Virus record (IMG/VR): IMGVR_UViG_3300033183_000491
Coordinates: 64,001-128,000 of that record
Length of the DNA: 64,000 nt
Direction: 5' to 3' (one strand)
From: a virus
The translations under genes and the position numbers were made by a program. Shown here in pieces: positions 15,200 to 40,773 of the stretch (position 1 is the stretch's first letter; every line of letters begins with the position of its first letter). Below the pieces are notes generated by a model that made no database searches, was not told the origin of the DNA, and saw nothing but the letters and a program-made list of their open reading frames with translations.

Positions 15200-18100
15200 T
15201 TATTTTTTAATATCTTCCCATTCAACATATTTAAATTTTTCCAAGTAATCTGAATTGAGTTCGTCAGATCCCTCGTCAGATTTTTTGTTTTCATTACCAT
15301 ATCTGTCTTTAACTTGTTCAAGTAATATTTTAAAAGCTGTTTCTTTTTCAATAGACTTAACATTATAGATACCAGAATTAGCTCTAGAGTTTATGATTTC
15401 TCGAAGCCAAGTATCAGCAGTTGAAATAGTATCTTGATTACCCCAAACGTGTTTTGATGTTGGTTTGTATTTTTTTATACTTAAATTATTTTTAAATTTA
15501 ACACGGGAAGCAATGCCATCACTTGGATTTAAAGAAACAGTTTTATTTTCAAGTTTTTTTTCAAGTTTTTTAATACTTTCTGGATTTGCATATTTAAAAA
15601 TTTCATTAAGACTTACTTGAGAAGTATCTTCTCCTGATAAGAGATTGAAATCTTCGTATATTTGCGATTGATTAATTATATCAATATGAAATCCATTATA
15701 TTTTTTACCATTTGGTCTTAATGGGACTCCTCGTTCATCTAAAACAATCCTTCCTTTAAACTTTTTTGTGTTTTCATCGAGGCTTTTAATTGTATTAACA
15801 TTCTTCGTTGTTATTCCATATCTATGTGGTTTTGGATAAGCCATATAATCAATACCTGCACCTACATTGTTTGCGCCTAGATTAAAACATGTTTTTATAA
15901 AAAATTGTGTTATTTTAAAGTCATCGTCATCATTAGGATCATATAAACAAACATTTTTTTGTTCACCATCAATATTTCTAACTAAATATATATCAGCAGC
16001 ATATCCTAAAGCGTGGTTCATATCTCCGCCGTGTGATCTTTTTAGTATTTTTTTTAACATATTTTTTTTGTTTCTAATATTTCCTTGAAGAAAAAGACCA
16101 AACTCTTCTACGTTTTCTGTAAGACTTCCTAAATCTTCTGTATAAAATGTATAAAATGTTTTAGCTATTTTATACCATAAATTTATTGATAAAGAACCGC
16201 CACTAATAATTTTAACTTTTTCTAAAGAAGGATAAACTTCTTGCGTCAACTTAAAAGATTCATCTATTATCTTTAATAATTTAGGCTGAATGTTGCTTCT
16301 TCTTTCAGTCCAAGCATCATATTCAAAACCATATTCTATATTACTACTCCCCGTAGGATTTTGCTTTCCATTTGGGTTATCTTCGCTAATATTATTTAAC
16401 TTTATAAATTCATCTTGGTTTCCTCCACCCACGAGATTTATTTTGTCTATTATTTCTTCTTTTATTTTTTTTATTCTATCTTTGTAAACATATCCAGTGT
16501 TTTTTAAACTTGAAAGTTTTCGCTTATCCTTTTTAGACATATTGATGCTTTTTGAAGAAGTTTTATCATTTGAAATCTTTAAAACCTGTTCGCTTTTTCC
16601 TTTAAATAAATCTTCTTCGATAATTTCATCTTCTTCAAAAACTAAAGATGACGTTCTAATAATCGAAGAATCTTCTTCAGACTCAGTGTCAGATTCTTCG
16701 ATTAAAGACCTTCTATCATAAGAGTTTTTGTTATACTCTGATTTTAAATCATATAAAATTGATGAATAATAATCTTCTCTAAATTCAGGATAAAAATATA
16801 AATTAGGATCTCTCTTGGTAAGAGTATCTCCTAATTCTTTATAGTCGATAGATAAATATTTTTTACCATAAAGATTATGTAACAAAAAAATATTTTTTTG
16901 TTTAGAGAAAATATTTTTTTTAAAAATACATTTATCTATTATCATATTAACATTGATTGAATAAGTTTCATCAATCTTATAAAATAAATTAAAATCGCTA
17001 TCTCCTGGTTTTAAATTATAATACTTTGAAAATGGTTCTGGTGTTTTTGTAAATTTCTCTTTCTCTTTAGTAAGAAGATATTCTCCGTTTATTGTATTTA
17101 AATAAATATCTGGTTCGAACAAATGAAAATTTGAATATTCATCATCTGATATTACTTGATTATTTAAAAAAACGTTTTGATTTTTTGCTATCTTATCATC
17201 TAATATAGTATATTCAAAAACAAAATAAATTTTATTGTCTTCACTTGAAAAATAAATATCTTTTATAAAGTCTATACTAGACAAACCATCTAAAGTATAA
17301 CTGTCTAGTATAGACTTTATATCTTCATAAGACATAATACTACATTCGTTAGAAATTTCGAAAGAAGTGTTTGTTAATGTCGACTTTAAAATTTCATTAT
17401 CATTTTTGTATAACTCTATACCGACTGAAGATGTTATTGATTGTCTTAAATATGTATTATTTTTATTAGATGAAAAAACTGAAAAGAAAGCCAACGAATA
17501 TTTGTTAAAAAAGTCAACCCCAGCCTTATCAGTATTATTAATTGTAAAATCTTCTCTAAGTTTAGACAGTATTTTATTGTAATCATTAAATGTTAAAGAT
17601 TTTACAGAAAAACCTACAGTTCTAGAGAAATCATTTTTATCTTTATACACATCAGAAATATTTTTTATATAAGAATAATAAAAATCTTTATTGTTATAGT
17701 TATAGAACTTCGATGTAAAATCATCGTTTTCTCCTGTTTCCAAAACTATTTCTTCTAAAGACTCATATCCTTCCATTTGGTCAATTGTTTTTGAAAAATC
17801 TATTGTATCAAAGTCTTTTCCAAGAAATAAATCTTCTGTGTTATTTAATGTTATTTGAGCTTTAATACTTGGATCCATTTTAAAAACTATTTCTTTTTGC
17901 GGAATAAAAGAAGAATGTTTTAATAGATTTTTATTTGTACCTGATAATTCAAATGCAAAAGAAAAATTTTGATCTTCAACTTCGTTATTAAATATTACTC
18001 TTCCATACGTTTCATAGTTTTTAATATTATTAAGAACATATCTAAATTCATCAATAAAAGAATAATAAGATCTACTCTTAAATTTTTCAATAATCTCAAT

Positions 18101-18286
18101 ATCAGACTCAGGAGGATTTTTTAAATAATCAATTATAGATTTGTCATTACAAAAGTTATTTAAAAATCCGTTACTGTAAAAGAATAGATTTTCCCATTTG
18201 TTAGAATAATATCCAGGAAAATGTGTTTCAAAGTTTATTTTAAAAGAATTTTCACTTTGTGAGTATTTGTCTTCTATTGAACTCAT
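15200..18286 (-). CDS. large baseplate/tail protein with C-terminal DD-peptidase-like (M15/hedgehog-fold) domain
   Basis: 1028 residues. The first 600 are Asp/Asn/Phe/Tyr-rich and unlike anything I can name. From about 660 a peptidase fold appears: KIISGGSLS, then NHALGYAADIYL (His758, Asp765), then ANNVGAGIDYM and GFHIDI (His867, Asp869). This is the zinc-ligand order of M15/VanX-type D-Ala-D-Ala peptidases (H-x6-D ... H-x-D). It probably cuts peptide cross-links in the host wall during tail penetration, as tail-tip hydrolases do. It follows the other large tail proteins in the same transcript, which supports virion location. Confidence 0.75.
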   Translation of the reverse strand: MSSIEDKYSQSENSFKINFETHFPGYYSNKWENLFFYSNGFLNNFCNDKSIIDYLKNPPESDIEIIEKFKSRSYYSFIDEFRYVLNNIKNYETYGRVIFNNEVEDQNFSFAFELSGTNKNLLKHSSFIPQKEIVFKMDPSIKAQITLNNTEDLFLGKDFDTIDFSKTIDQMEGYESLEEIVLETGENDDFTSKFYNYNNKDFYYSYIKNISDVYKDKNDFSRTVGFSVKSLTFNDYNKILSKLREDFTINNTDKAGVDFFNKYSLAFFSVFSSNKNNTYLRQSITSSVGIELYKNDNEILKSTLTNTSFEISNECSIMSYEDIKSILDSYTLDGLSSIDFIKDIYFSSEDNKIYFVFEYTILDDKIAKNQNVFLNNQVISDDEYSNFHLFEPDIYLNTINGEYLLTKEKEKFTKTPEPFSKYYNLKPGDSDFNLFYKIDETYSINVNMIIDKCIFKKNIFSKQKNIFLLHNLYGKKYLSIDYKELGDTLTKRDPNLYFYPEFREDYYSSILYDLKSEYNKNSYDRRSLIEESDTESEEDSSIIRTSSLVFEEDEIIEEDLFKGKSEQVLKISNDKTSSKSINMSKKDKRKLSSLKNTGYVYKDRIKKIKEEIIDKINLVGGGNQDEFIKLNNISEDNPNGKQNPTGSSNIEYGFEYDAWTERRSNIQPKLLKIIDESFKLTQEVYPSLEKVKIISGGSLSINLWYKIAKTFYTFYTEDLGSLTENVEEFGLFLQGNIRNKKNMLKKILKRSHGGDMNHALGYAADIYLVRNIDGEQKNVCLYDPNDDDDFKITQFFIKTCFNLGANNVGAGIDYMAYPKPHRYGITTKNVNTIKSLDENTKKFKGRIVLDERGVPLRPNGKKYNGFHIDIINQSQIYEDFNLLSGEDTSQVSLNEIFKYANPESIKKLEKKLENKTVSLNPSDGIASRVKFKNNLSIKKYKPTSKHVWGNQDTISTADTWLREIINSRANSGIYNVKSIEKETAFKILLEQVKDRYGNENKKSDEGSDELNSDYLEKFKYVEWEDIKK

Positions 18287-29406: not shown

Positions 29407-32400
29407 CTATCTATTTACATTAATTATACCAATATTATTTTCATCTGTAAAATCATTTACGTTATTTATTAGATTATTAATTTGTATATTTTGGAAGAAA
29501 TCTTCATTTAAATTGTCTCCAAACAAAGAGAATCCAACATTACCTGAAATTGTATGTTCGAGATCTTCTAAGTTTGTTTTGTTTAAATTTGTAATAGGGA
29601 TATCAACAAAGTAATTTTTAATAATGCCTGATTGTCTGTAATTGTCAAAGAAATTTGTTAATTCAATAGAGAGTTGAGCTCTTGTATTTGCTAAAGGATT
29701 TGTCGACGAAGTCATATTAAATAGAACAGTATCATTATTAACAATAGGTTGAGTTATTAATAGATTCTTAAGATTTCTTTTTATATTTAAATAAATTCTG
29801 ACATTGTGAAACAGAGAAAATATATTTTTTCTTTGATTAATTAAAGTATTTGCTGAAAGTGGTTTTATTTTTTTATTAGCAGATAGAGTCCCGATAGGGT
29901 TAACAATATATTCTTTATTTTTTGTTTTTGTTAAGAGATTATCAAAATCATTATTTGAATAAATAAATTTAGAGTTTACAGGATTAGTAAATGTAATTAG
30001 ATTATTGTTATAATTTATACTATCGAGAGGCTGACTAATACTTTGACTTTGAGAAAGAGAATTTATAAATAACATAGAAGAAGGAACTTCTAGATTTAAA
30101 TCATCAACAACAGCTTCACATCTATTAAAAGTACTAATACTAAATCTAGAATTTAAGAATCTTAGTTTTTGCTGATCTAAACTAGTTTCAGTTCCATTAA
30201 TTAAACTAGATTTAACTTCATCTCTTTCATCTAATAAGTCAACTATATTTTTATCTAAATTATTAAAATAATATGTATCTTTAATTAAATTTTCATTCGA
30301 ATCGTACTCTAAAGTATCAAATACATATAAGAAATTTGAATCATCTCTTGATTTAACAACAATATCATCAACAATTTCAGGAGTATTAATACCTGGAATA
30401 TAGAAAACATCACATCTAAAATTATCATTATCTAATGCAATATCTTTAGCAACTTTATATGCATAAGTTGTTTGTCCTACAGTCTGATTAGGTATTTCAC
30501 CATCATATTCTCTTAAACAAGATTCATTAAGCATTTTTCTTTTATATTCATCAAGAATATTAATTCCATCAAACCCGCCATAAGAAAAGAAATCAAAACT
30601 TAAAAATCTCGAAGCAATTGCATCAGCTTCTGTTTCAGAATTAAGAACTTCATTAACATTAATATAATTAAAAGAATCAGGAATATGATCGATATCAGAC
30701 AAATCTTTTCCATCTCTTCTATAGAAAGAATATTGCCACTTATCATTTGTTGTTAATTCATTGGGAAGATATAAAATCTTTTCTAAATGAAAAAATCCAT
30801 TTTGACTATCACTATCAGTATCTTCTAAAGGTGTAATCCAAAACTTTTGATCTCTAAAGTCTTGAAAATATTTCGTATAACTGTGATAAAAATTATATTC
30901 ATCAGAAGAACTTTGCTGAAATGTGTCGAACATAAACTTATATGTATCGTTTTGCCCAACTAGAGAAACATCTTTAATTTCTCCTTTTAATGTTTTATCA
31001 AATTGAACTCCCCAATAACTATTGTCAATGTCATAATTTATTTTATTGTCACTAATTTCATTAATTTTTCTATTTGCGACATATAGTATCGGGTTCTGCA
31101 TTACAGAAACATCGTCTGTTACATCCAGATTACTCTCGTTTATGTTCAAATGAGGATATGGAAAAAATCCACATGGAATCAAAAAAGATTCATTCTGCAT
31201 ATATTCTACATCATCATGTATTTCAACATAAATGTGGTTATTTGTTTTTTTATAGTCACCAACATGAATAACTTCTTTTGTATTCAAATCATAGTATTCA
31301 TATTCTGTCCCAATAATCTTCCCTATATAATTTTCACTTTTAGGATTTAAATCTAAGTCTCTAAAAGACATTAAATTCATAAAAGAGTTATTTTTATAGT
31401 CGTATTTATATACAATTAAATCGAATATTGACCAAGATTCTCTTTGATCTCTTTTAAAAGATTTACCTAGTCTTCTTGGGATTATTCTAAATCTATATTT
31501 GTTTCCTTTTTTACCATCTGAATATGAATGGAATCTAAACAGTTTTTTACATTCATTATGAAAATTCTGTCTAAAACCTTCTTGTCTATATAAAGGTTGG
31601 GAAACGACCCAAGGTGTTTTTGCTTTTTTATAAATACTTTCAAACGATTCAAAATTAACTGTAGGATTGGAACCACTATCAATTTCTTCATTCCAATTAT
31701 TTATACCTACTGTAACAAAATGTCTACTATTATCAGCATCACTTTTAACTGTCTGATTAAATGAACTAATGTTTCTAAATGATGCGTAATTTAAATTTCC
31801 TTTTTCAAGATAATAATCTGGTGATGTATTAAAATAGCTTTCAAAATAATTCTTTTTTAAATATCGGTTTGTTTCATCAGGAAATTCTAAAATAACTTTG
31901 TTTTTATTAAGAACGCCTTGTAAATATATTTTTGGATTTTTTAATGAAGACTCAGTATTACCATATTCAATAGAGTTATTACTACTAACTGAAGATAGTT
32001 TGTTGTATAAATCTTCTTGTTTAAAAGTGTCAAGTTCATCTGATTGCAGTTTAAACTTTGTTCCTTTTGCTGCAAAAACAATGTCAGTAATTAAACCTAG
32101 TTTTGTAATTGAAGAATCACCTGTAATTTGCTCAATATAGTCTCTATAAGGAGAAACATATCCGTCTAAATCTATATTTTCATAATATGATCCGAAAAAA
32201 GTAGTTTTTCCTTTACTTCCACCAGAAACAGCAAAAGAATTATCACCTTTGATTCCAGATGTTATACTTCCTTTTAAAACGTCATCGCCAACAATAAAAC
32301 CAGCATGTTCATATTTGTTTTGAGAGTTTAAGCCGTTTCCATCACCAATACCAAGAACTCTTGTATAAGTTAATTGATTACCATTATTTGACAACCAGAT

Positions 32401-32646
32401 GTTTGAAGTTAAAGGACCATATTGATCTTTTTGATATTCAAAGTCACCAAATATGTTTTCCCACGTATTTAAAGTTGCTTCAGACTTTCCAAAAGACAAT
32501 ATTTGTTGTGGAACAAAAGCAGGACCCATATTAGCTGTACCAACAACTGAAAGTGTTTCTTCAGTTAATGATACTGTTACCTCTTCTTTAAAAGAGTTAG
32601 GTGTTACAATATGACCACTTATTTGTGAATTGTTGACATTTGACAT
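29407..32646 (-). CDS. third, divergent tail-sheath-like protein
   Basis: 1079 residues. The N-terminus (VVGTANMGPAFVPQQILSFG, then YTRVLGIGDGNG, then AGFIVGDDVLKG) is clearly paralogous to the two sheath genes upstream. The middle keeps FDGINILDEYKRKM, the sheath GGFDGLNIL motif. The C-terminus has lost the usual LDRxNVRRL segment and the EFI-x-DFV end; instead it runs NVRIYLNIKRNLKNLL and continues with Asn-rich sequence. It may cap the sheath, join it to the baseplate, or form a specialised ring. It is the only sheath gene placed after the tube gene, and a hairpin covers its ribosome site. Confidence 0.82.
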   Translation of the reverse strand: MSNVNNSQISGHIVTPNSFKEEVTVSLTEETLSVVGTANMGPAFVPQQILSFGKSEATLNTWENIFGDFEYQKDQYGPLTSNIWLSNNGNQLTYTRVLGIGDGNGLNSQNKYEHAGFIVGDDVLKGSITSGIKGDNSFAVSGGSKGKTTFFGSYYENIDLDGYVSPYRDYIEQITGDSSITKLGLITDIVFAAKGTKFKLQSDELDTFKQEDLYNKLSSVSSNNSIEYGNTESSLKNPKIYLQGVLNKNKVILEFPDETNRYLKKNYFESYFNTSPDYYLEKGNLNYASFRNISSFNQTVKSDADNSRHFVTVGINNWNEEIDSGSNPTVNFESFESIYKKAKTPWVVSQPLYRQEGFRQNFHNECKKLFRFHSYSDGKKGNKYRFRIIPRRLGKSFKRDQRESWSIFDLIVYKYDYKNNSFMNLMSFRDLDLNPKSENYIGKIIGTEYEYYDLNTKEVIHVGDYKKTNNHIYVEIHDDVEYMQNESFLIPCGFFPYPHLNINESNLDVTDDVSVMQNPILYVANRKINEISDNKINYDIDNSYWGVQFDKTLKGEIKDVSLVGQNDTYKFMFDTFQQSSSDEYNFYHSYTKYFQDFRDQKFWITPLEDTDSDSQNGFFHLEKILYLPNELTTNDKWQYSFYRRDGKDLSDIDHIPDSFNYINVNEVLNSETEADAIASRFLSFDFFSYGGFDGINILDEYKRKMLNESCLREYDGEIPNQTVGQTTYAYKVAKDIALDNDNFRCDVFYIPGINTPEIVDDIVVKSRDDSNFLYVFDTLEYDSNENLIKDTYYFNNLDKNIVDLLDERDEVKSSLINGTETSLDQQKLRFLNSRFSISTFNRCEAVVDDLNLEVPSSMLFINSLSQSQSISQPLDSINYNNNLITFTNPVNSKFIYSNNDFDNLLTKTKNKEYIVNPIGTLSANKKIKPLSANTLINQRKNIFSLFHNVRIYLNIKRNLKNLLITQPIVNNDTVLFNMTSSTNPLANTRAQLSIELTNFFDNYRQSGIIKNYFVDIPITNLNKTNLEDLEHTISGNVGFSLFGDNLNEDFFQNIQINNLINNVNDFTDENNIGIINVNR

Positions 32647-32709
32647 TTAACATCCTGTTTTTAACTTTATTATATAACTATTAATGTAGGTTAAAAAACA
32701 GGATGTTAA
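32647..32709 (-). promoter_or_regulatory. long hairpin covering the ribosome binding site of the third sheath-like gene
   Basis: Arms TTAACATCCTGTTTTT and AAAAACAGGATGTTAA pair perfectly over 16 bp and continue for 3 bp after a one-base bulge. The AGGA ribosome site is buried in the 3' arm, which ends directly at the ATG (32644-32646). There is no T run after the stem, so it is not an ordinary terminator. Confidence 0.8.
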
Positions 32710-32725
32710 TATTTAATGATTTAAA

Positions 32726-33214
32726 TTAGTATTGAAGTACGCAGTTATCAAATCTGATTGTTAAAGAAATGTCTGCTGGTGCTTCATCATCATATGAAAG
32801 ATCACTAAAGTTTGCATTAGTTAAGAAAGCTCCTTTAATATCCCAAAGTTCAACAACTGTTCCAACAGGATCAAGCATCTTAAGTTGACAATCTCTTTTA
32901 TAGAAATCTGCATAACCAGCTCTACCACTAACAGATTCATAGTGTGTACGAATCCATTCCATAACTTGTTGCGCTCCACTTGGCGCAATAGGATCGTGAA
33001 GAGTAACATTCATTTGTTCGAATGTCATCTTACCTGCAACATATCTTTTTGCATTGATAAAGTTAATTTCTTGCTCACCAATTGAAAATGAAGGTCGACT
33101 AGCAGACTTAAGGATAAAGGCATCAATACCCTCAATTGCGAAGACCCATCTGTTCTTTCTTTTTGGCTCAAACTTATTCGGAATCATTTCCGTGACTGAA
33201 AGCGTCTCTGCCAT
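32726..33214 (-). CDS. tail tube protein, gp19-like
   Basis: 162 residues, the same length as T4 gp19 (163). IPNKFEPKRKNRWVFAIEGI, then SIGEQEINFINAKRYVAGK, then ADISLTIRFDNCVLQY are the conserved strands of myovirus tube proteins. It stacks as hexameric rings inside the sheath. It follows the second sheath gene by 35 bases with a good ribosome site, and is separated from the third sheath-like gene by the hairpin at 32647-32709. Confidence 0.92.
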   Translation of the reverse strand: MAETLSVTEMIPNKFEPKRKNRWVFAIEGIDAFILKSASRPSFSIGEQEINFINAKRYVAGKMTFEQMNVTLHDPIAPSGAQQVMEWIRTHYESVSGRAGYADFYKRDCQLKMLDPVGTVVELWDIKGAFLTNANFSDLSYDDEAPADISLTIRFDNCVLQY

Positions 33215-33249
33215 TTTATTATCTCCTAAAATTCTTTATATTATATATA

Positions 33250-36200
33250 TTAGTCTATTGAATTAGTTACAACGAAATCAAGTGAAATAAACTCTACAGA
33301 TTTGGTAGGTTGCAAATAAACTTTACCACGAATTGTATTGTTTTCAATATCATTTTGAGTTGTTGTTGATGTATCAATTTGAACTTTATAACGTTCTACA
33401 CCTTGACGTGCCTGAACTTCTGACATGATCGGCTCAACGAGTGAACTAAATCTATTAAGAGTTGAAGCTCTATTCGGCTCGAATAAGAGTGTATTAGCAA
33501 CTGCCTTAACTCTACGACGAATGTTAATCAAAAGTCTACGAACATTAATTCGATCAAGAGCTGATTGATTTTGTAACAAAGTCTTTTGTCCAAATGCATA
33601 AACCTCGTTTGTACGTCCTGATGGAACATAAATTGGATTAATGTCTGCATCATAAAGATCATTTAACAAATCTCGATTCATTTGAACCTTTGCATTACTT
33701 GCATTTAAACGTCCACGAGTTAAACCAGCTGGAGCAAACCAAGGATCAGCTAATGTATCATTTTGACTCATAACACCAAGTATACATACTGACGGAGGAA
33801 CCTGAATTGGTGTGTTATTTGACGATCTTCTTGAAATAACATCTGGGAAATATGCAGCTGCAAAAGATGTATCCAATCCACGATTTTCAAATGTTGTAAT
33901 TGTTTGACCAACGTGAGGCTTAATATCTGATGATGTAATAACTGCAGAATTCTTATCAGATTCTTGAATATCCATAACCAACATTGCATCAAATCTGCTT
34001 TCGCAAGCTGTAATTGCATAATCTGTTACTAAAGGTTCACGAATACCAGGAATTGCTAACAACTGAATCTCTGTTGCACTCTTATCTGAAAGAACGTCAA
34101 TTGCTCTCTTGTAAGATTCAACAGTTGGGCCAGTAAACTTGTTTGATCCTACCACTTCCTCGTTAGCTTCACGATGAGCAGCAACTGTACTTAAAGCAGC
34201 TTTTTCCTTGTTAAAGATATTAAGACCATCAAATCCACCTTGCATTAAACAACGGAACTTAAGAAACTTAACATTACCACCCTTAGCTGCAGTTGAAATG
34301 TCAAATGCAGAAAGATTAGAATTGTCACTCGAACCAGATCTTTCATAAACAGCTGATGCCCAATCTGACCCATCCCAGAAAATATTCTCAAGAGAGAAAG
34401 ATTCACTAGACAATTTAGAGAAAGAATAAGTTCCCATATCAGGATAAAATTTTGTCCAAGATCTAATACTTGGATTAAGTCTAATCTCACCTAACTCTTT
34501 ATGAAGACCACCATTTTCTTTCTTTGCAAATTTAACGCCCCACGCCAAATCAGAAGATGGTGATACAGATACACCAGATTGTCTCGTTAATGTCTTTACG
34601 AAAGGTAAAGGTAAAACCTCAAGATTCTCAAGAGTGTTTACTAGAAGTAAACGTGATTCACCTGATCCATTTGTTCCTGATTCATCAAATAATCCTGTAT
34701 AACCTGTGTTAAGTGTTACATACTCTGAGAATCCACAAGGAAGAGTCACATAATCCAAGTCACCAGACATAAGCTCTTCAGACATTTCAACCCAAACATA
34801 TTTGTTTCGAAGTTCAAAATCTCCATCTTCAACGAGCTTTCCTTTCTTGAAATCATAATAAACATTCTTGTTACCAATAACTCTACCAATAAAGTTTCTA
34901 TGGTCTGGGTCAAGTGTTAAATTCTTCCAAGACACAATAGACTCACCCTTGACAGGATCACTATCAAAACTCTCTAATGATAAACTAAATGTTGCCCACT
35001 CAGACGCTGTTGAACCTAGTCTTAAATCTGAAATAAGGATTCTAAATCTATCGTTTGCTATTGCACCATCATCTTGTGCATGTAGTCTAAATAGTTTCTT
35101 TGTTTGTCCACCAAACTTTTGAGACATAATCCAAGGAGATTTTGCTGTTCTGAATCTTGTGTCAAAGCCTTCAAAATTAGGACTGTCAGCTGTTTCAGTA
35201 TTTCTTGATCCTTGTGACGGTAAACAGAAAGCAGCAGTTTCTGAACTAGCTGCGGTATTTGTAGACGTATATACACCTGTTACATCAATTACTGAAACGT
35301 CTGGATCAACGTCCCAATGAGCATATAAATAATGTCCACATTCTTCAATCTTTTCTGGGTCTGTGTTTAAAACTTTAGCAAAGTAATTAACACTTTCAGG
35401 ATCAAATGAACAAGTTAAAACTGCTGGATGATCAGTGTTACTAAACCCATTTAATAAAACTGTAAAAGAATTATTATCTACTTTACCTAATTCGTAACCA
35501 ATTAAATCAGAAGCCTCAGTGCCACCAAAGTTTCTTAAAGTACCTTCGCTAGTTACAGATTTTCTTGCATCTGCATCTGTAGTAGAGACAGATGTGTATG
35601 TTCCATCTGTAACGTCTAATGTAGCTTTAACTCCTTGAGGAGTCATAAGTAGACCTCGAATTACAGGAATAGCTGATCCACTTCCTCCAGTTAAGTTTAA
35701 TTGTTGAATTCCAAAACTACTATCAATCCTTGTTCCATTAAATGAAGCCTTTATTGGAGAACCTTTTATTTTTAAAATAATACTATCACTAAAGAAATTA
35801 CCAACATCTGAATTAGTCTTTGCTTCAAGACTAAGATACATTAGATAAATATTACTTTCATCCTGAACTGCGTCGCTTATGATACCAAATGGTCTAATAT
35901 TTTGATCAGTTTGACTATTTCCAATAGTATCTCTTAAAACATCTTGAATTCTATTAACTGTTTCAACTTGATTTGTATTGTCGATTTCAATTTGATAATA
36001 TCCACTTACTAGAGTACCATTAACTGTTCCATCTGTATACTCAACAAATTTGTATCTTACTGTAGTATCTGTTGCAGTATTAAGAGATTTAAAATCAAAA
36101 GAAAATTCATTCCCGATTAAAGTATCACTAATATCAAATTCCAAGAAAAAAGTACTATTTTCAGTAATATTAGACCCAGTAGTATCAACTGTTGAGGATG

Positions 36201-37623
36201 TATTATCAATATCACTTACATTAACAAAGTTTGTAATCGCGCCTTTTAAAGAACTTGTAATAGTTAATGTTCCATTATTATTATTTACAAATGTATACGT
36301 AGGATCTCCTTGACCATCTAATTGGTTTGCTTCAGCAGCAGCTCGTCCAAAAGTAATAGCTTCAGCTATTCTTCCCGCTATATTTGTATTATTACCTAAT
36401 TGGTTTGAAATACCAATAACAACATTTCCTTGAGTATTGTCTCTAGCAGCTGCTGAATCTTGTGTTGTATCAATTCTAATTGTTAAATCATTTCCTAAAA
36501 TATCTGTTATAACAATAGTATCATCATTTAATGGGTTGCCAGAAATTGTAAGAGTAACAATTTCTGCAACTGCAGGTGTGTCGTAAATAGGACCAAGTGC
36601 AAGCTGAGTTTCTAAATCTGTTCCACTTGAAGAACTATTCCCTAATGATGAAAGGGTAATCGACCCTTCTGTATCTGTATTTAAGAAATATTTAACACTT
36701 GTATTTGTAGATTCTCCTGTTCCAACGTGACTAATTTCAATAAAGTTACTAACTAAATCTTTTGTAATAACATTTAAATAGTTTGATGATAAAATTTTAC
36801 TTGAGGGAAAAGCTATTCCTAATTCGCTTTGTCCACTAAATGCTTTTTCTAATTGACTTAAAAATCCGTCAATATCTAAACCATTAATACCGACGGATAT
36901 CTCATGTGGATCTGACTCTGTCCCAGCAGAATCAGTCAAATCTTCAGGGGTGATAGTTGATGATCCTGTTAAGAAAATAAATTTAAGCCATTTAATATCA
37001 CTTTCACCTACAGCTTTAATTAAAATAAAATCATCGTTTGAAGGTAACTCATCTCCAAGAGTAATTTTTAATCTAGAAGAAACATTCGAACTTTGAAGTC
37101 CTGCATCTTTTAAGAATTCACTTCCAGCAGCATCTTTCATGAAACATCCTAAGAAGTGTGTTCTTCCGACATCTTTTGCAGCAGTTTTTGAAGCTGCAGC
37201 ATTAGGTCCTGATTCATAAGCTGCATGTTGATTATCTGTTAAATCTGTTCCATCGTATGAAACTGAGTCACCAACGATAAAACCAGCACCTTGTGTTTTT
37301 TTATTTGAATCTAATGTACCGTCGCCATCACCAACGCCAAGAACTCGAACGTAAGCTCCAGCTTGAGCATTTCTCATCCATTCATTAATAGCAAGAGGAC
37401 CAAAGAGATTGGCGTTGCTATCTTGGCTAACTTCTGAAAGAGATCCGAAAATGTCTCCGAATTGTTGTGTATTTGCGAATGTTTTTGGTACGAAAGCAGG
37501 GCCACGTTTAGCAGGCCCTACAACTGCAGCAGGAACACCTTGAGGTAGAACTTCTTGGTCCCTAACTTGTGATAAATCTATTTCTCTTAGAGTAACTCTT
37601 GCTGAGCCTTGATTATCGGCCAT
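33250..37623 (-). CDS. tail sheath protein, long paralogue with inserted domains
   Basis: 1457 residues. The N-terminus (VVGPAKRGPAFVPKTFAN, YVRVLGVGDGDG) and C-terminus (ALDRINVRRLLINIRRRVK, VEFISLDFVVTN) are those of a contractile sheath. Between about residues 190 and 680 lies a large insertion of Thr/Asn/Asp-rich beta sequence not present in the shorter paralogue. It would face outward, as the protease-resistant domains of gp18 do. GGFDGLNIF is conserved near residue 1130. It and the 37666-40773 gene both end with the same intergenic TAATATATAATATAAAG-like sequence. Confidence 0.9.
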   Translation of the reverse strand: MADNQGSARVTLREIDLSQVRDQEVLPQGVPAAVVGPAKRGPAFVPKTFANTQQFGDIFGSLSEVSQDSNANLFGPLAINEWMRNAQAGAYVRVLGVGDGDGTLDSNKKTQGAGFIVGDSVSYDGTDLTDNQHAAYESGPNAAASKTAAKDVGRTHFLGCFMKDAAGSEFLKDAGLQSSNVSSRLKITLGDELPSNDDFILIKAVGESDIKWLKFIFLTGSSTITPEDLTDSAGTESDPHEISVGINGLDIDGFLSQLEKAFSGQSELGIAFPSSKILSSNYLNVITKDLVSNFIEISHVGTGESTNTSVKYFLNTDTEGSITLSSLGNSSSSGTDLETQLALGPIYDTPAVAEIVTLTISGNPLNDDTIVITDILGNDLTIRIDTTQDSAAARDNTQGNVVIGISNQLGNNTNIAGRIAEAITFGRAAAEANQLDGQGDPTYTFVNNNNGTLTITSSLKGAITNFVNVSDIDNTSSTVDTTGSNITENSTFFLEFDISDTLIGNEFSFDFKSLNTATDTTVRYKFVEYTDGTVNGTLVSGYYQIEIDNTNQVETVNRIQDVLRDTIGNSQTDQNIRPFGIISDAVQDESNIYLMYLSLEAKTNSDVGNFFSDSIILKIKGSPIKASFNGTRIDSSFGIQQLNLTGGSGSAIPVIRGLLMTPQGVKATLDVTDGTYTSVSTTDADARKSVTSEGTLRNFGGTEASDLIGYELGKVDNNSFTVLLNGFSNTDHPAVLTCSFDPESVNYFAKVLNTDPEKIEECGHYLYAHWDVDPDVSVIDVTGVYTSTNTAASSETAAFCLPSQGSRNTETADSPNFEGFDTRFRTAKSPWIMSQKFGGQTKKLFRLHAQDDGAIANDRFRILISDLRLGSTASEWATFSLSLESFDSDPVKGESIVSWKNLTLDPDHRNFIGRVIGNKNVYYDFKKGKLVEDGDFELRNKYVWVEMSEELMSGDLDYVTLPCGFSEYVTLNTGYTGLFDESGTNGSGESRLLLVNTLENLEVLPLPFVKTLTRQSGVSVSPSSDLAWGVKFAKKENGGLHKELGEIRLNPSIRSWTKFYPDMGTYSFSKLSSESFSLENIFWDGSDWASAVYERSGSSDNSNLSAFDISTAAKGGNVKFLKFRCLMQGGFDGLNIFNKEKAALSTVAAHREANEEVVGSNKFTGPTVESYKRAIDVLSDKSATEIQLLAIPGIREPLVTDYAITACESRFDAMLVMDIQESDKNSAVITSSDIKPHVGQTITTFENRGLDTSFAAAYFPDVISRRSSNNTPIQVPPSVCILGVMSQNDTLADPWFAPAGLTRGRLNASNAKVQMNRDLLNDLYDADINPIYVPSGRTNEVYAFGQKTLLQNQSALDRINVRRLLINIRRRVKAVANTLLFEPNRASTLNRFSSLVEPIMSEVQARQGVERYKVQIDTSTTTQNDIENNTIRGKVYLQPTKSVEFISLDFVVTNSID

Positions 37624-37665
37624 ATCTATAGTCTCCTGTTATTCTTTAAATCTTTATATTATATA

Positions 37666-40600
37666 TTAGGGAAATTCAACACCTGCGTTTGTAATAACAA
37701 AATCAATTGCAATAAATTCAACAGCACGTGTTGGGACGATAACAATTTTACCATTTAATCGATTATTGTCAACATCTTCAGATGTATTATTTGTATCATC
37801 CATGATAACCCTGAAGTCTTCAATCCCTTGATTAACTTGAATTGAAGATAATTGTGAATTTGAGCTTTGAACGAACCTTGCTCTCGTTTCACTGTTATTT
37901 TGTTCGAATAAAAGCCCTTGAGCAATTAATTCGATTCTTCTCTTAACTTCTAGGACCAAACGACGTACGTTAACGCGATCAAGAGCTGTTCTTGCTAGTT
38001 GTGAAGTCTTTTGTCCAAAGATAACAAATTGTTTGTTCGGGAAGTTTGCAATAGGATTAATACGTGCTTCGTAAAGAGTATCACGATCTTCTGCATTTAA
38101 TCTAACATCGATTGCCTGAATTGTTTCGAGTGTTCCTCTTGTAAATCCTGCAGGAGCAAACCAAGGTTGTGCAACATCATCAGTCTTAGCTAATGCACCA
38201 AGAGCAATAATTGATGGTGGAACCTTAATCATTCTTCTACTTGCTAAAGCTGCTGTTTCATCATCGCTAAAGTCTAAGATCTTAACGTCAGGGAAATAAG
38301 ATGCTGTATAAGATGAATTAACTTCTCTACGATCAAATGCTCCAGCTGTTTCATCAACATCAGGTCTACTTGAAGAAAGTCCTTTTTCATTCACAAAGAC
38401 TCTAAATCCATCTGTATCGAATTGTTGGATGTCCATTAGGTAAAGAGATTTTCCAAATTCTTCGCTCTTTAATTTAACTCTATCAGTAATGAATGGATCT
38501 CTAATTCCTGGAAGAAGAAGAACATTATGATTAACAACCATTTCGTCAGTCATTAAATTAACAGCATTCATGTAAGATGCAACAACATTGTTTTCATCTT
38601 CAGCACCTTGCATAGCAGCAGCTGTTGTAAGCGCAAGACCACTGTCAAATCCAGATGAACTTGCTTTACCTTGATCAGCTAAATCAGAACCTGCTCCTTT
38701 TTGTGTCAATTCAATCGATGCAGCGCGATCTGTCATGTAATATGAGTCGCTGTCTAAGATATTAAGTCCATCAAATCCACCAAAGAAAGGAGCTGTAAAC
38801 TTAGCTGCAACGCTATACTTATTAAACTTAGTTACATCCTCTGCTAAAAGTTTTGCTAATGACATTCTAACAGATTGAACTTCAACTGATGTATCTTCAC
38901 CTGAAAGAGCGTCTTTTGAATCTGTAACTGTGAAATTAATTGTATGATTAGAAGAATCATATAGTTTTGATCCAACATCTGCATTTCTTATATAAACAGC
39001 ATCTTTAAATAGTTCTGAAACTGAACCCTTGAGAGCATCAACTCTAAGGTCAGCAGAACTTCCATCGTCTGCAAGAGGAGTTTTAAAACAAACTTTTGCT
39101 AAACTGAATTTGTTATTGTTATGAGAATCTGCCTTTGATCTTGACCAAACATCAGTATCTGCACTTAAAAACTTTGTATAATTCTCTAGGAGTTGATTAA
39201 ACTCTGTACTGTGATTAGGATTATCAATGTCTTTAATTCTTGTTGACATTAAACCCCAGTGAAGACTTAAATCAACAGATTCAGAAGGTGATGCTTCACC
39301 TGTAAACGTTTGATTATATGAAAGACCTCCTGTTTTAATACTTCCTTTTGTAATCTTAAATCTACTTGGTAAAGGAGGCATAACAGATTTATTTAGATTT
39401 GATGCTGGGTTACTATCTGTAAATGTAGTCCAAAGTGCTGTCGAAGAGTCTTTACCCTCTGCGTTTAATAAAAGAGCAGGAACTCCACGATAACCGAATG
39501 GAAGAGCTTTTTGTGGAGCTTCTCCATTTAAGACATCATCACTTACAACAACTCTAACTCTTGTTGAATTATTAGAGAATGATCCTTCACGAATTAATCT
39601 TCTTTCAGATTCTTGTGCTTCAAAATTATAATAAATCTTTTGATCACCAATAACATTACCAATAAATGATTCTGAATTGGGATCTAATGAACAATTTGTA
39701 AATGTTTCATAAACAATTTGAGCTTCATCTGTATCTCTTAAATCTCTTACCGAAACTGTGAATGTTCCATATTCGCTTGTTGGATCATTACTTGCTCTTA
39801 GATTCGAAATAGAAATCTTATATTTATTACTTGCATATGCACCATCATCTAATGATTCAAAGTGGAATAAATCGTATTCTTTATCACCAAAAGGTTGAGA
39901 GATAAACATTGGCGTTTCTGGAGTTGTAAACTTATTTTCAAAGTTAGCATACTTACTTAAATAATTTACTCCGCTAACATCATCATTTCCTCTTAAGAGA
40001 GCAACAGCTTGTCCGACGTTTGAAGCAACTTCTACATCAACAGGAAAATGTGCATATAATAAGACTTTATGTTCATCAAAAGCTAAAGGATCTGTATTTA
40101 AAACTTTTGAGATATAGCTTGAACTAGATGGATCTAATGAAATGTCTCTAGTATAAATTGAACCTGCATCGTTTCTAATATCTAAAGTAAATAATCCAGA
40201 TGTTTCATCAGAAGTTTCGACGTCAGCGTTTGTTCCTACTTTTAAGTGAACATCTTTATGAACAAAAATCATTGCTCTAACTAATTCGACAATACCATCT
40301 CCAGCATTACCTAAACCATCTGTTAAATCATTGTCCATGTCTGTTGTATGAGAATTATTGTCGTTAAAGTTACCTAAAGCAAGATGTTCTGCGTTATCTA
40401 ATTTATGCTTTGCAGCAAGAAAAAAGACGCTGCCTTTTCCTGATGCATCGTCTGAACTAAGTTTGAATCCTGCATTGACTGAAGGTGATCCTATAGAGTA
40501 TCCACTTCCAAGAGTTCTACAAAAAGTAAGAGCTTTACCGTTGTTTCTAAAAAATTCTGTTGCTGCGTGTCCGCCAAGCATGCGTCTGTCAGGTGCTCCG

Positions 40601-40773
40601 AAGATTCGAGTGTATTCTTCAATTGATGAAACAGTAGTTGGTACAAATGCTGGACCTCTTTCAGAAGGACCAATAACACCGACAGGTGTTGCTGTGTTTC
40701 TAAAAATAGGTCTACTGATTATTTCAATTTCACGCTCAAAAAAACCTGGAGACTTAAATGTCTGCTCTGCCAT
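37666..40773 (-). CDS. tail sheath protein, gp18-like
   Basis: 1035 residues. GVIGPSERGPAFVPTTVSS at the N-terminus, FGGFDGLNILDSD in the middle, PWFAPAGFTRG, and TALDRVNVRRLVLEVKRRI then VEFIAIDFVIT at the C-terminus mark a full contractile sheath with intact N- and C-terminal linking arms. It is longer than T4 gp18 (659) because of extra domains. GC content is visibly higher than in neighbouring genes, as in the capsid gene, consistent with strong expression. It is probably the principal sheath subunit. Confidence 0.93.
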   Translation of the reverse strand: MAEQTFKSPGFFEREIEIISRPIFRNTATPVGVIGPSERGPAFVPTTVSSIEEYTRIFGAPDRRMLGGHAATEFFRNNGKALTFCRTLGSGYSIGSPSVNAGFKLSSDDASGKGSVFFLAAKHKLDNAEHLALGNFNDNNSHTTDMDNDLTDGLGNAGDGIVELVRAMIFVHKDVHLKVGTNADVETSDETSGLFTLDIRNDAGSIYTRDISLDPSSSSYISKVLNTDPLAFDEHKVLLYAHFPVDVEVASNVGQAVALLRGNDDVSGVNYLSKYANFENKFTTPETPMFISQPFGDKEYDLFHFESLDDGAYASNKYKISISNLRASNDPTSEYGTFTVSVRDLRDTDEAQIVYETFTNCSLDPNSESFIGNVIGDQKIYYNFEAQESERRLIREGSFSNNSTRVRVVVSDDVLNGEAPQKALPFGYRGVPALLLNAEGKDSSTALWTTFTDSNPASNLNKSVMPPLPSRFKITKGSIKTGGLSYNQTFTGEASPSESVDLSLHWGLMSTRIKDIDNPNHSTEFNQLLENYTKFLSADTDVWSRSKADSHNNNKFSLAKVCFKTPLADDGSSADLRVDALKGSVSELFKDAVYIRNADVGSKLYDSSNHTINFTVTDSKDALSGEDTSVEVQSVRMSLAKLLAEDVTKFNKYSVAAKFTAPFFGGFDGLNILDSDSYYMTDRAASIELTQKGAGSDLADQGKASSSGFDSGLALTTAAAMQGAEDENNVVASYMNAVNLMTDEMVVNHNVLLLPGIRDPFITDRVKLKSEEFGKSLYLMDIQQFDTDGFRVFVNEKGLSSSRPDVDETAGAFDRREVNSSYTASYFPDVKILDFSDDETAALASRRMIKVPPSIIALGALAKTDDVAQPWFAPAGFTRGTLETIQAIDVRLNAEDRDTLYEARINPIANFPNKQFVIFGQKTSQLARTALDRVNVRRLVLEVKRRIELIAQGLLFEQNNSETRARFVQSSNSQLSSIQVNQGIEDFRVIMDDTNNTSEDVDNNRLNGKIVIVPTRAVEFIAIDFVITNAGVEFP

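Follow-up and report, generated by a model that had tools for sequence, protein, structure and literature searches.

Genome setting and genes at the tube border

The source record is a large uncultured bacterial virus of 239,550 bases, and the stretch analysed here (the window, 64,000 nucleotides) comprises its bases 64001-128000. The minus strand of the window carries structural genes for the large terminase, portal, protease and major capsid proteins, together with a first sheath (1035 aa), a second sheath (1457 aa), a tube (162 aa), a 1079-aa protein and a baseplate-hub protein. Within window positions 29407-40773, a single tube gene is thus surrounded by genes for three sheath-family proteins of very large size (1035, 1457 and 1079 aa). 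The tail tube protein gene (162 aa; 32726..33214, minus strand) ends at 32726 and is the upstream neighbour of the gene for the 1079-aa tail-sheath-like protein (29407..32646, minus strand), which starts with the ATG at 32644-32646 and is the gene that the hairpin described below would control.

Searches of PHROGs and Pfam with the 1079-aa protein produced no match. Comparison of its family profile with the first sheath showed an alignment over most of the length (hhalign, probability 99.8%, E 2.5e-28). On this profile evidence the protein can be taken as a sheath homologue, and the name 'sheath-like', which an earlier note on this DNA had given it, is right.

Sequence and predicted fold of the hairpin

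The spacer from the tube stop codon to the ATG of the 1079-aa gene is 79 nt long and reads, on the minus strand, TTTAAATCATTAAATA TTAACATCCTGTTTTT T AAC ctacattaatagttatataataaa GTT AAAAACAGGATGTTAA ATG. The hairpin is located at 32644-32709 on the minus strand. Its 5' arm (TTAACATCCTGTTTTT, 32694..32709, minus strand) begins 16 nt past the tube stop codon, while its 3' arm (AAAAACAGGATGTTAA, 32647..32662, minus strand) contains the ribosome-binding site and adjoins the ATG, which the last base of the stem directly precedes. The arms comprise 16 bp, are 100% complementary and lie 31 nt apart. Beyond a bulged T (32693), three extra pairs are formed by 32690-32692 with 32663-32665, and these make up the loop side together with the loop itself (32663..32692, minus strand). 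The AGGA Shine-Dalgarno (32653..32656, minus strand) is wholly paired within the 3' arm. The earlier note had described 16 perfect base pairs and three more between the tube stop and the ATG, with the AGGA fully paired and the stem ending at the ATG; the pairing agrees with the sequence and the fold, and the arm coordinates confirm the rest.

The hairpin is far beyond chance. Its predicted fold had an energy of -19.2 kcal/mol with a z of -5.5. When the 79-nt spacer was shuffled 2000 times with its dinucleotides preserved, perfect inverted repeats reached at most 13 bp compared to the 16 bp observed, and none of the shuffles folded equally well. Across 184 kb of the genome, read as six stretches, 170 gene starts were surveyed; the ribosome-binding zone of the 1079-aa gene had a paired probability of 1.0 compared to a median of 0.41 over all 170 starts, and this start was the most occluded among the strongly folded leaders.

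No T run was found after the stem, so the hairpin does not have the form of an intrinsic terminator, which supports what the earlier note had held. An Rfam scan of the hairpin returned no family at threshold; the sole match, a microRNA, reached 20.6 bits where the gathering score is 140 and was dismissed as chance.

Conservation and covariation in relatives

The single 1079-aa sequence used as a query found no relatives; the tube gene and then an alignment supplied them, and relatives of the gene border were collected from tube homologues in viral contigs and from relatives of the sheath-like protein. At every locus read in the close clade, where protein identity is 39-63%, a hairpin was present over the ribosome site, with a stem that encloses the site and ends on, or a few bases from, the next ATG. 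The rows of L097, L098, L101 and L104 were left out of the ribosome-site fold table, as their starts had been set by the match instead of the ATG. The letters of the arms vary widely between relatives, as in L008 (CACCCTATTTTT/AAAAATAGGGTG), L003 (TTATACCCTACTTTA/TAAAGTAGGGTATAA) and L007 (CCTAATTTCAG/CTGAAATTAGG), and the pairing is kept by compensating changes. Some relatives have shorter stems (L058 ~9 bp, L011 ~14 bp).

In the alignment of 18 sequences of this border, where pair counts are imperfect because MAFFT misplaces the 5' arm of L003, L007, L011, L024 and L087, standard pairs were found in 88.9% of cells compared to 44-52% in slid controls, and 15 cells were changed on both sides compared to 6.5 in shuffles. 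The covariation score was 0.334 compared to 0.236 in shuffles and was reached in none of 500. An arm-swap test was added because of the misplaced arms, in which duplexes of own arms averaged -19.7 kcal/mol and those of swapped arms -10.7 kcal/mol (0 of 20,000 permutations), a count which, like those of the shuffles, is to be read as support and not as an exact probability since the relatives share descent. The only invariant columns of the alignment outside the 3' arm and the start were an ATA in the loop. Overall, the predicted sequestration of the ribosome site by the hairpin, which the earlier note had proposed and which lack of covariation would have spoken against, is well supported by the folding and by the compensating arms present in the relatives.

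Promoter-like box in the loop

A promoter-like box, TATATAAT (32669..32676, minus strand), lies in the loop at -30 relative to the ATG of the 1079-aa gene and had no part in the earlier reading of the hairpin. The same box precedes the tube gene by 33 nt (33240..33247, minus strand) and the second sheath gene by 42 nt (37658..37665, minus strand). The loop also contains ATTAATA (32679..32685, minus strand), which is aligned with the ATAAATA core of most relatives' spacers. ATAAATA, the late-promoter core known from T4, KVP40 and cyanophages (PMC2984593), was present in 14 of the 21 spacers of hairpin loci, with a mean of 1.7 and a maximum of 7 in shuffles.

A 13-column motif learned from tube-gene leaders only, in a scan with the L097 and L098 leaders shifted by ~12 nt, scored 60.9 on the hairpin spacers compared to 24.5 on shuffles (sd 11.4, maximum 60.5; n=200). 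The 10-column version was weaker (73.1 compared to 45.0, maximum 78.1), and the window's own hairpin box taken by itself had only a marginal score (p about 0.065-0.09). Genome-wide, TATATAAT showed a modest sense bias (11 vs 4) and TATAAATA none (10 vs 12); the TATATAAT box is AT-rich and lies within an AT-rich genome. A scan for sigma70 hexamers showed matches no more numerous than in shuffles. Overall, from its motif, position and conservation, the TATATAAT box in the loop seems to be a promoter. A de novo motif search over all gene leaders of the window produced mostly codon-like patterns and was dropped. In addition, GTGTAA was sense-biased in the gene leaders of G000:C1:4001-188000 (12 vs 2), where it often occurs as AAGTGTAATT ahead of non-structural genes and is a candidate early-promoter element.

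Terminators at the same border in the sister clade

The sheath-like protein's more distant relatives make up a sister group in a tree with full support for the core splits, the two deepest branches having values of 81/72 and 84/81. In this group, an intrinsic terminator directly follows the tube gene at 15 of 16 loci. At L014, L028, L031-L034 and L038, the terminator is followed by TATATAAT at -33 to -36, and the sister group lacks a strong hairpin over the ribosome site. The terminator scan, which was run with wider limits since narrower ones missed long-loop terminators, found none at the hairpin-clade loci except for a weak A/T-only stem in L058. L063 is a lone relative at the base of the terminator group, yet it bears a hairpin. 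Both groups therefore appear to block expression of the sheath-like protein from the tube transcript and to restart at the next gene, the one by ending the RNA and the other by folding it.

Comparison with known systems and sigma factors

In T4, the ribosome sites of gene e (lysozyme), soc, 49 and I-TevI lie in a hairpin on upstream read-through RNA, and a late promoter within or next to the 5' part produces an RNA without the 5' arm (PMC3014915). In the T4 gene e leader, the regulation of which is experimentally established, ACCT and AGGT arms form a stem whose loop contains the late promoter TATAAATA. The arrangement here is similar, with the promoter-like box in the loop and the ribosome site in the 3' arm, as given by the predicted fold and covariation. 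However, the stem is longer, the box is TATATAAT instead of TATAAATA, and the upstream RNA, which is early or middle in the T4 gene e group, comes here from the structural genes tube and sheath.

Similar hairpins over the ribosome sites of I-TevI, segB and Aeh1 mobE in T4-related phages, from which late RNA escapes by way of a late promoter, guard mobile homing endonucleases in early or middle operons, whereas the present one guards a sheath-like tail gene (PMC2988022). A stem at the start of a tail gene is likewise found in the T4 gene 25 leader, which is conserved in T-even phages; unlike the putative promoter of this phage, none is described inside that hairpin in the available part of PMC3014915. 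The late promoter of cyanophages and T4 (NATAAATA / TATAAATA; PMC2984593) shares ATAAATA with the hairpin spacers of most relatives, while the copy in the window, ATTAATA plus TATATAAT, is unlike it.

Homologues of the T4 late sigma factor gp55 (phrog_234) were not found in the 239,550-base record, which may be incomplete, and the genome had no match to the gp45 clamp family or to RNA polymerase beta-subunit families. The only candidate sigma factor found in the genome was a sigma70-like protein. The hairpin was filed as one that would work like the T4 device and not as a gp55-dependent member, because gp55 had no match and the sigma70-like protein alone was present. Outside the window, at G000:C1:26388-26591 and 184353-184490, lie this sigma70-like protein, of 249 aa, and another one of 87 aa; the latter matches the sigma-family profile just past the part covered by the 249-aa protein, and the two are possibly a split sigma factor.

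Proposed mechanism and alternatives

The hairpin is read here, with a probability of roughly 0.6, as a silencer of read-through RNA wrapped around a promoter, with the output of the sheath-like protein tied to that promoter. On RNA that reads through from the tube gene, the hairpin would form and bar ribosomes from the start of the sheath-like gene. RNA polymerase with the promoter specificity of the structural genes (late-type) would also initiate inside the loop, and the resulting RNA would have no 5' arm, so that its AGGA would be free and the sheath-like protein translated. The output of this protein would then follow its own promoter and not the tube and sheath transcript. Computed pairing of the start region decreased from 0.87 to about 0.44 when the RNA started in the loop (mean of 17 loci), which is near the genome median of 0.41, a median calculated on a slightly narrower zone. 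From the box and these folds we infer a working promoter, the position of the RNA start and the effect on protein output. The ribosome site is most likely hidden on read-through RNA only; this is the more economical reading because the loop box sits at about the same position in relatives without the hairpin. As the upstream genes are structural, the most natural role would be to uncouple the sheath-like tail protein from tube and sheath in expression, rather than to separate early from late expression. Of the earlier interpretation, the hidden ribosome site thus stands, while a static damper, or a structure opened by a ribosome, a factor or RNase III, is less favoured, since the loop box favours silencing of read-through RNA; opening by an upstream ribosome and RNase III had no positive support.

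A constitutive damper, with the hairpin in all RNA for the gene lowering its translation relative to tube and sheath, would account for a strong, conserved and covarying stem over the ribosome site and would suit a protein required in fewer copies than either neighbour. However, it leaves the conserved loop box and the terminator-plus-box layout of the sister clade unexplained, and stems of about -19 to -29 kcal/mol are far beyond what tuning needs and would nearly abolish translation, which makes this reading improbable. Cutting of the stem by RNase III or another processing enzyme, which would separate the mRNAs of the tube and the sheath-like protein and free the ribosome site, agrees with the long and almost perfect duplex in this intergenic spacer. 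RNase III usually requires roughly two turns, and the stems of several relatives fall below this (about 9 bp in L058, about 14 bp in L011); with the conserved loop box also left unexplained, such processing is still less probable. Slimmer again is the chance that the hairpin is opened by the ribosome finishing the tube gene, by a protein or by a small molecule, as in coupling, a thermosensor or a riboswitch. The two genes are same-strand neighbours, but the stem and the ATG lie 16 nt and 79 nt past the tube stop codon, which is too far for simple coupling. The arm letters differ too widely among relatives for a protein that reads sequence, no Rfam family matched at threshold, and the stem is too stable for known thermosensors. 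Finally, the terminators of the sister clade at this border might suggest that the hairpin stabilises the 3' end of the tube mRNA, or is its degenerate terminator, and plays no part in the start of the next gene; this is very improbable given the missing T run and the close-clade stems that reach the next ATG and include the ribosome site.

Silencing of read-through RNA around a promoter would carry a textbook device of T4, known from a handful of genes, over to a tail gene of an uncultured phage lineage, in which natural covariation serves as evidence for it. The same border also offers a natural comparison of insulation by terminator and by hairpin. It is tentatively suggested, at somewhat less than even odds, that the lineage swapped two insulators of a structural gene at one border, a terminator plus promoter and a hairpin around a promoter. 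The hairpin would then be a translational stand-in for the terminator which sets amounts of structural proteins and not early against late timing. Phages would thereby gain a way of setting unequal amounts of neighbouring structural proteins, and the same phage may use the hairpin device at more than one gene.

Other inverted repeats in the genome

Outside the window, at G000:C1:167012-167070 (L160:19012-19070), a second hairpin of 17 bp covers the ribosome site (CTGGAGAT) of a 126-aa gene whose function is unknown. A hairpin over the ribosome site, with other arms, is also present in L167, the only relative found. A mirrored 17-bp start region with AAAAAAGGATTATTATG on both sides, likewise outside the window at G000:C1:52551-52624 (L158:8551-8624), is shared by two divergent genes (397 and 789 aa), so that the entire divergent promoter region is an inverted repeat. 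Within the window, gene 539-1402 has its ATG, its ribosome site and a TATA-rich box enclosed by an 18-bp perfect inverted repeat (1375-1456), the 3' arm of which is within the coding sequence. A 20-bp perfect inverted repeat was also found at window positions 17264-17321 within the 1028-aa gene 15200-18286.
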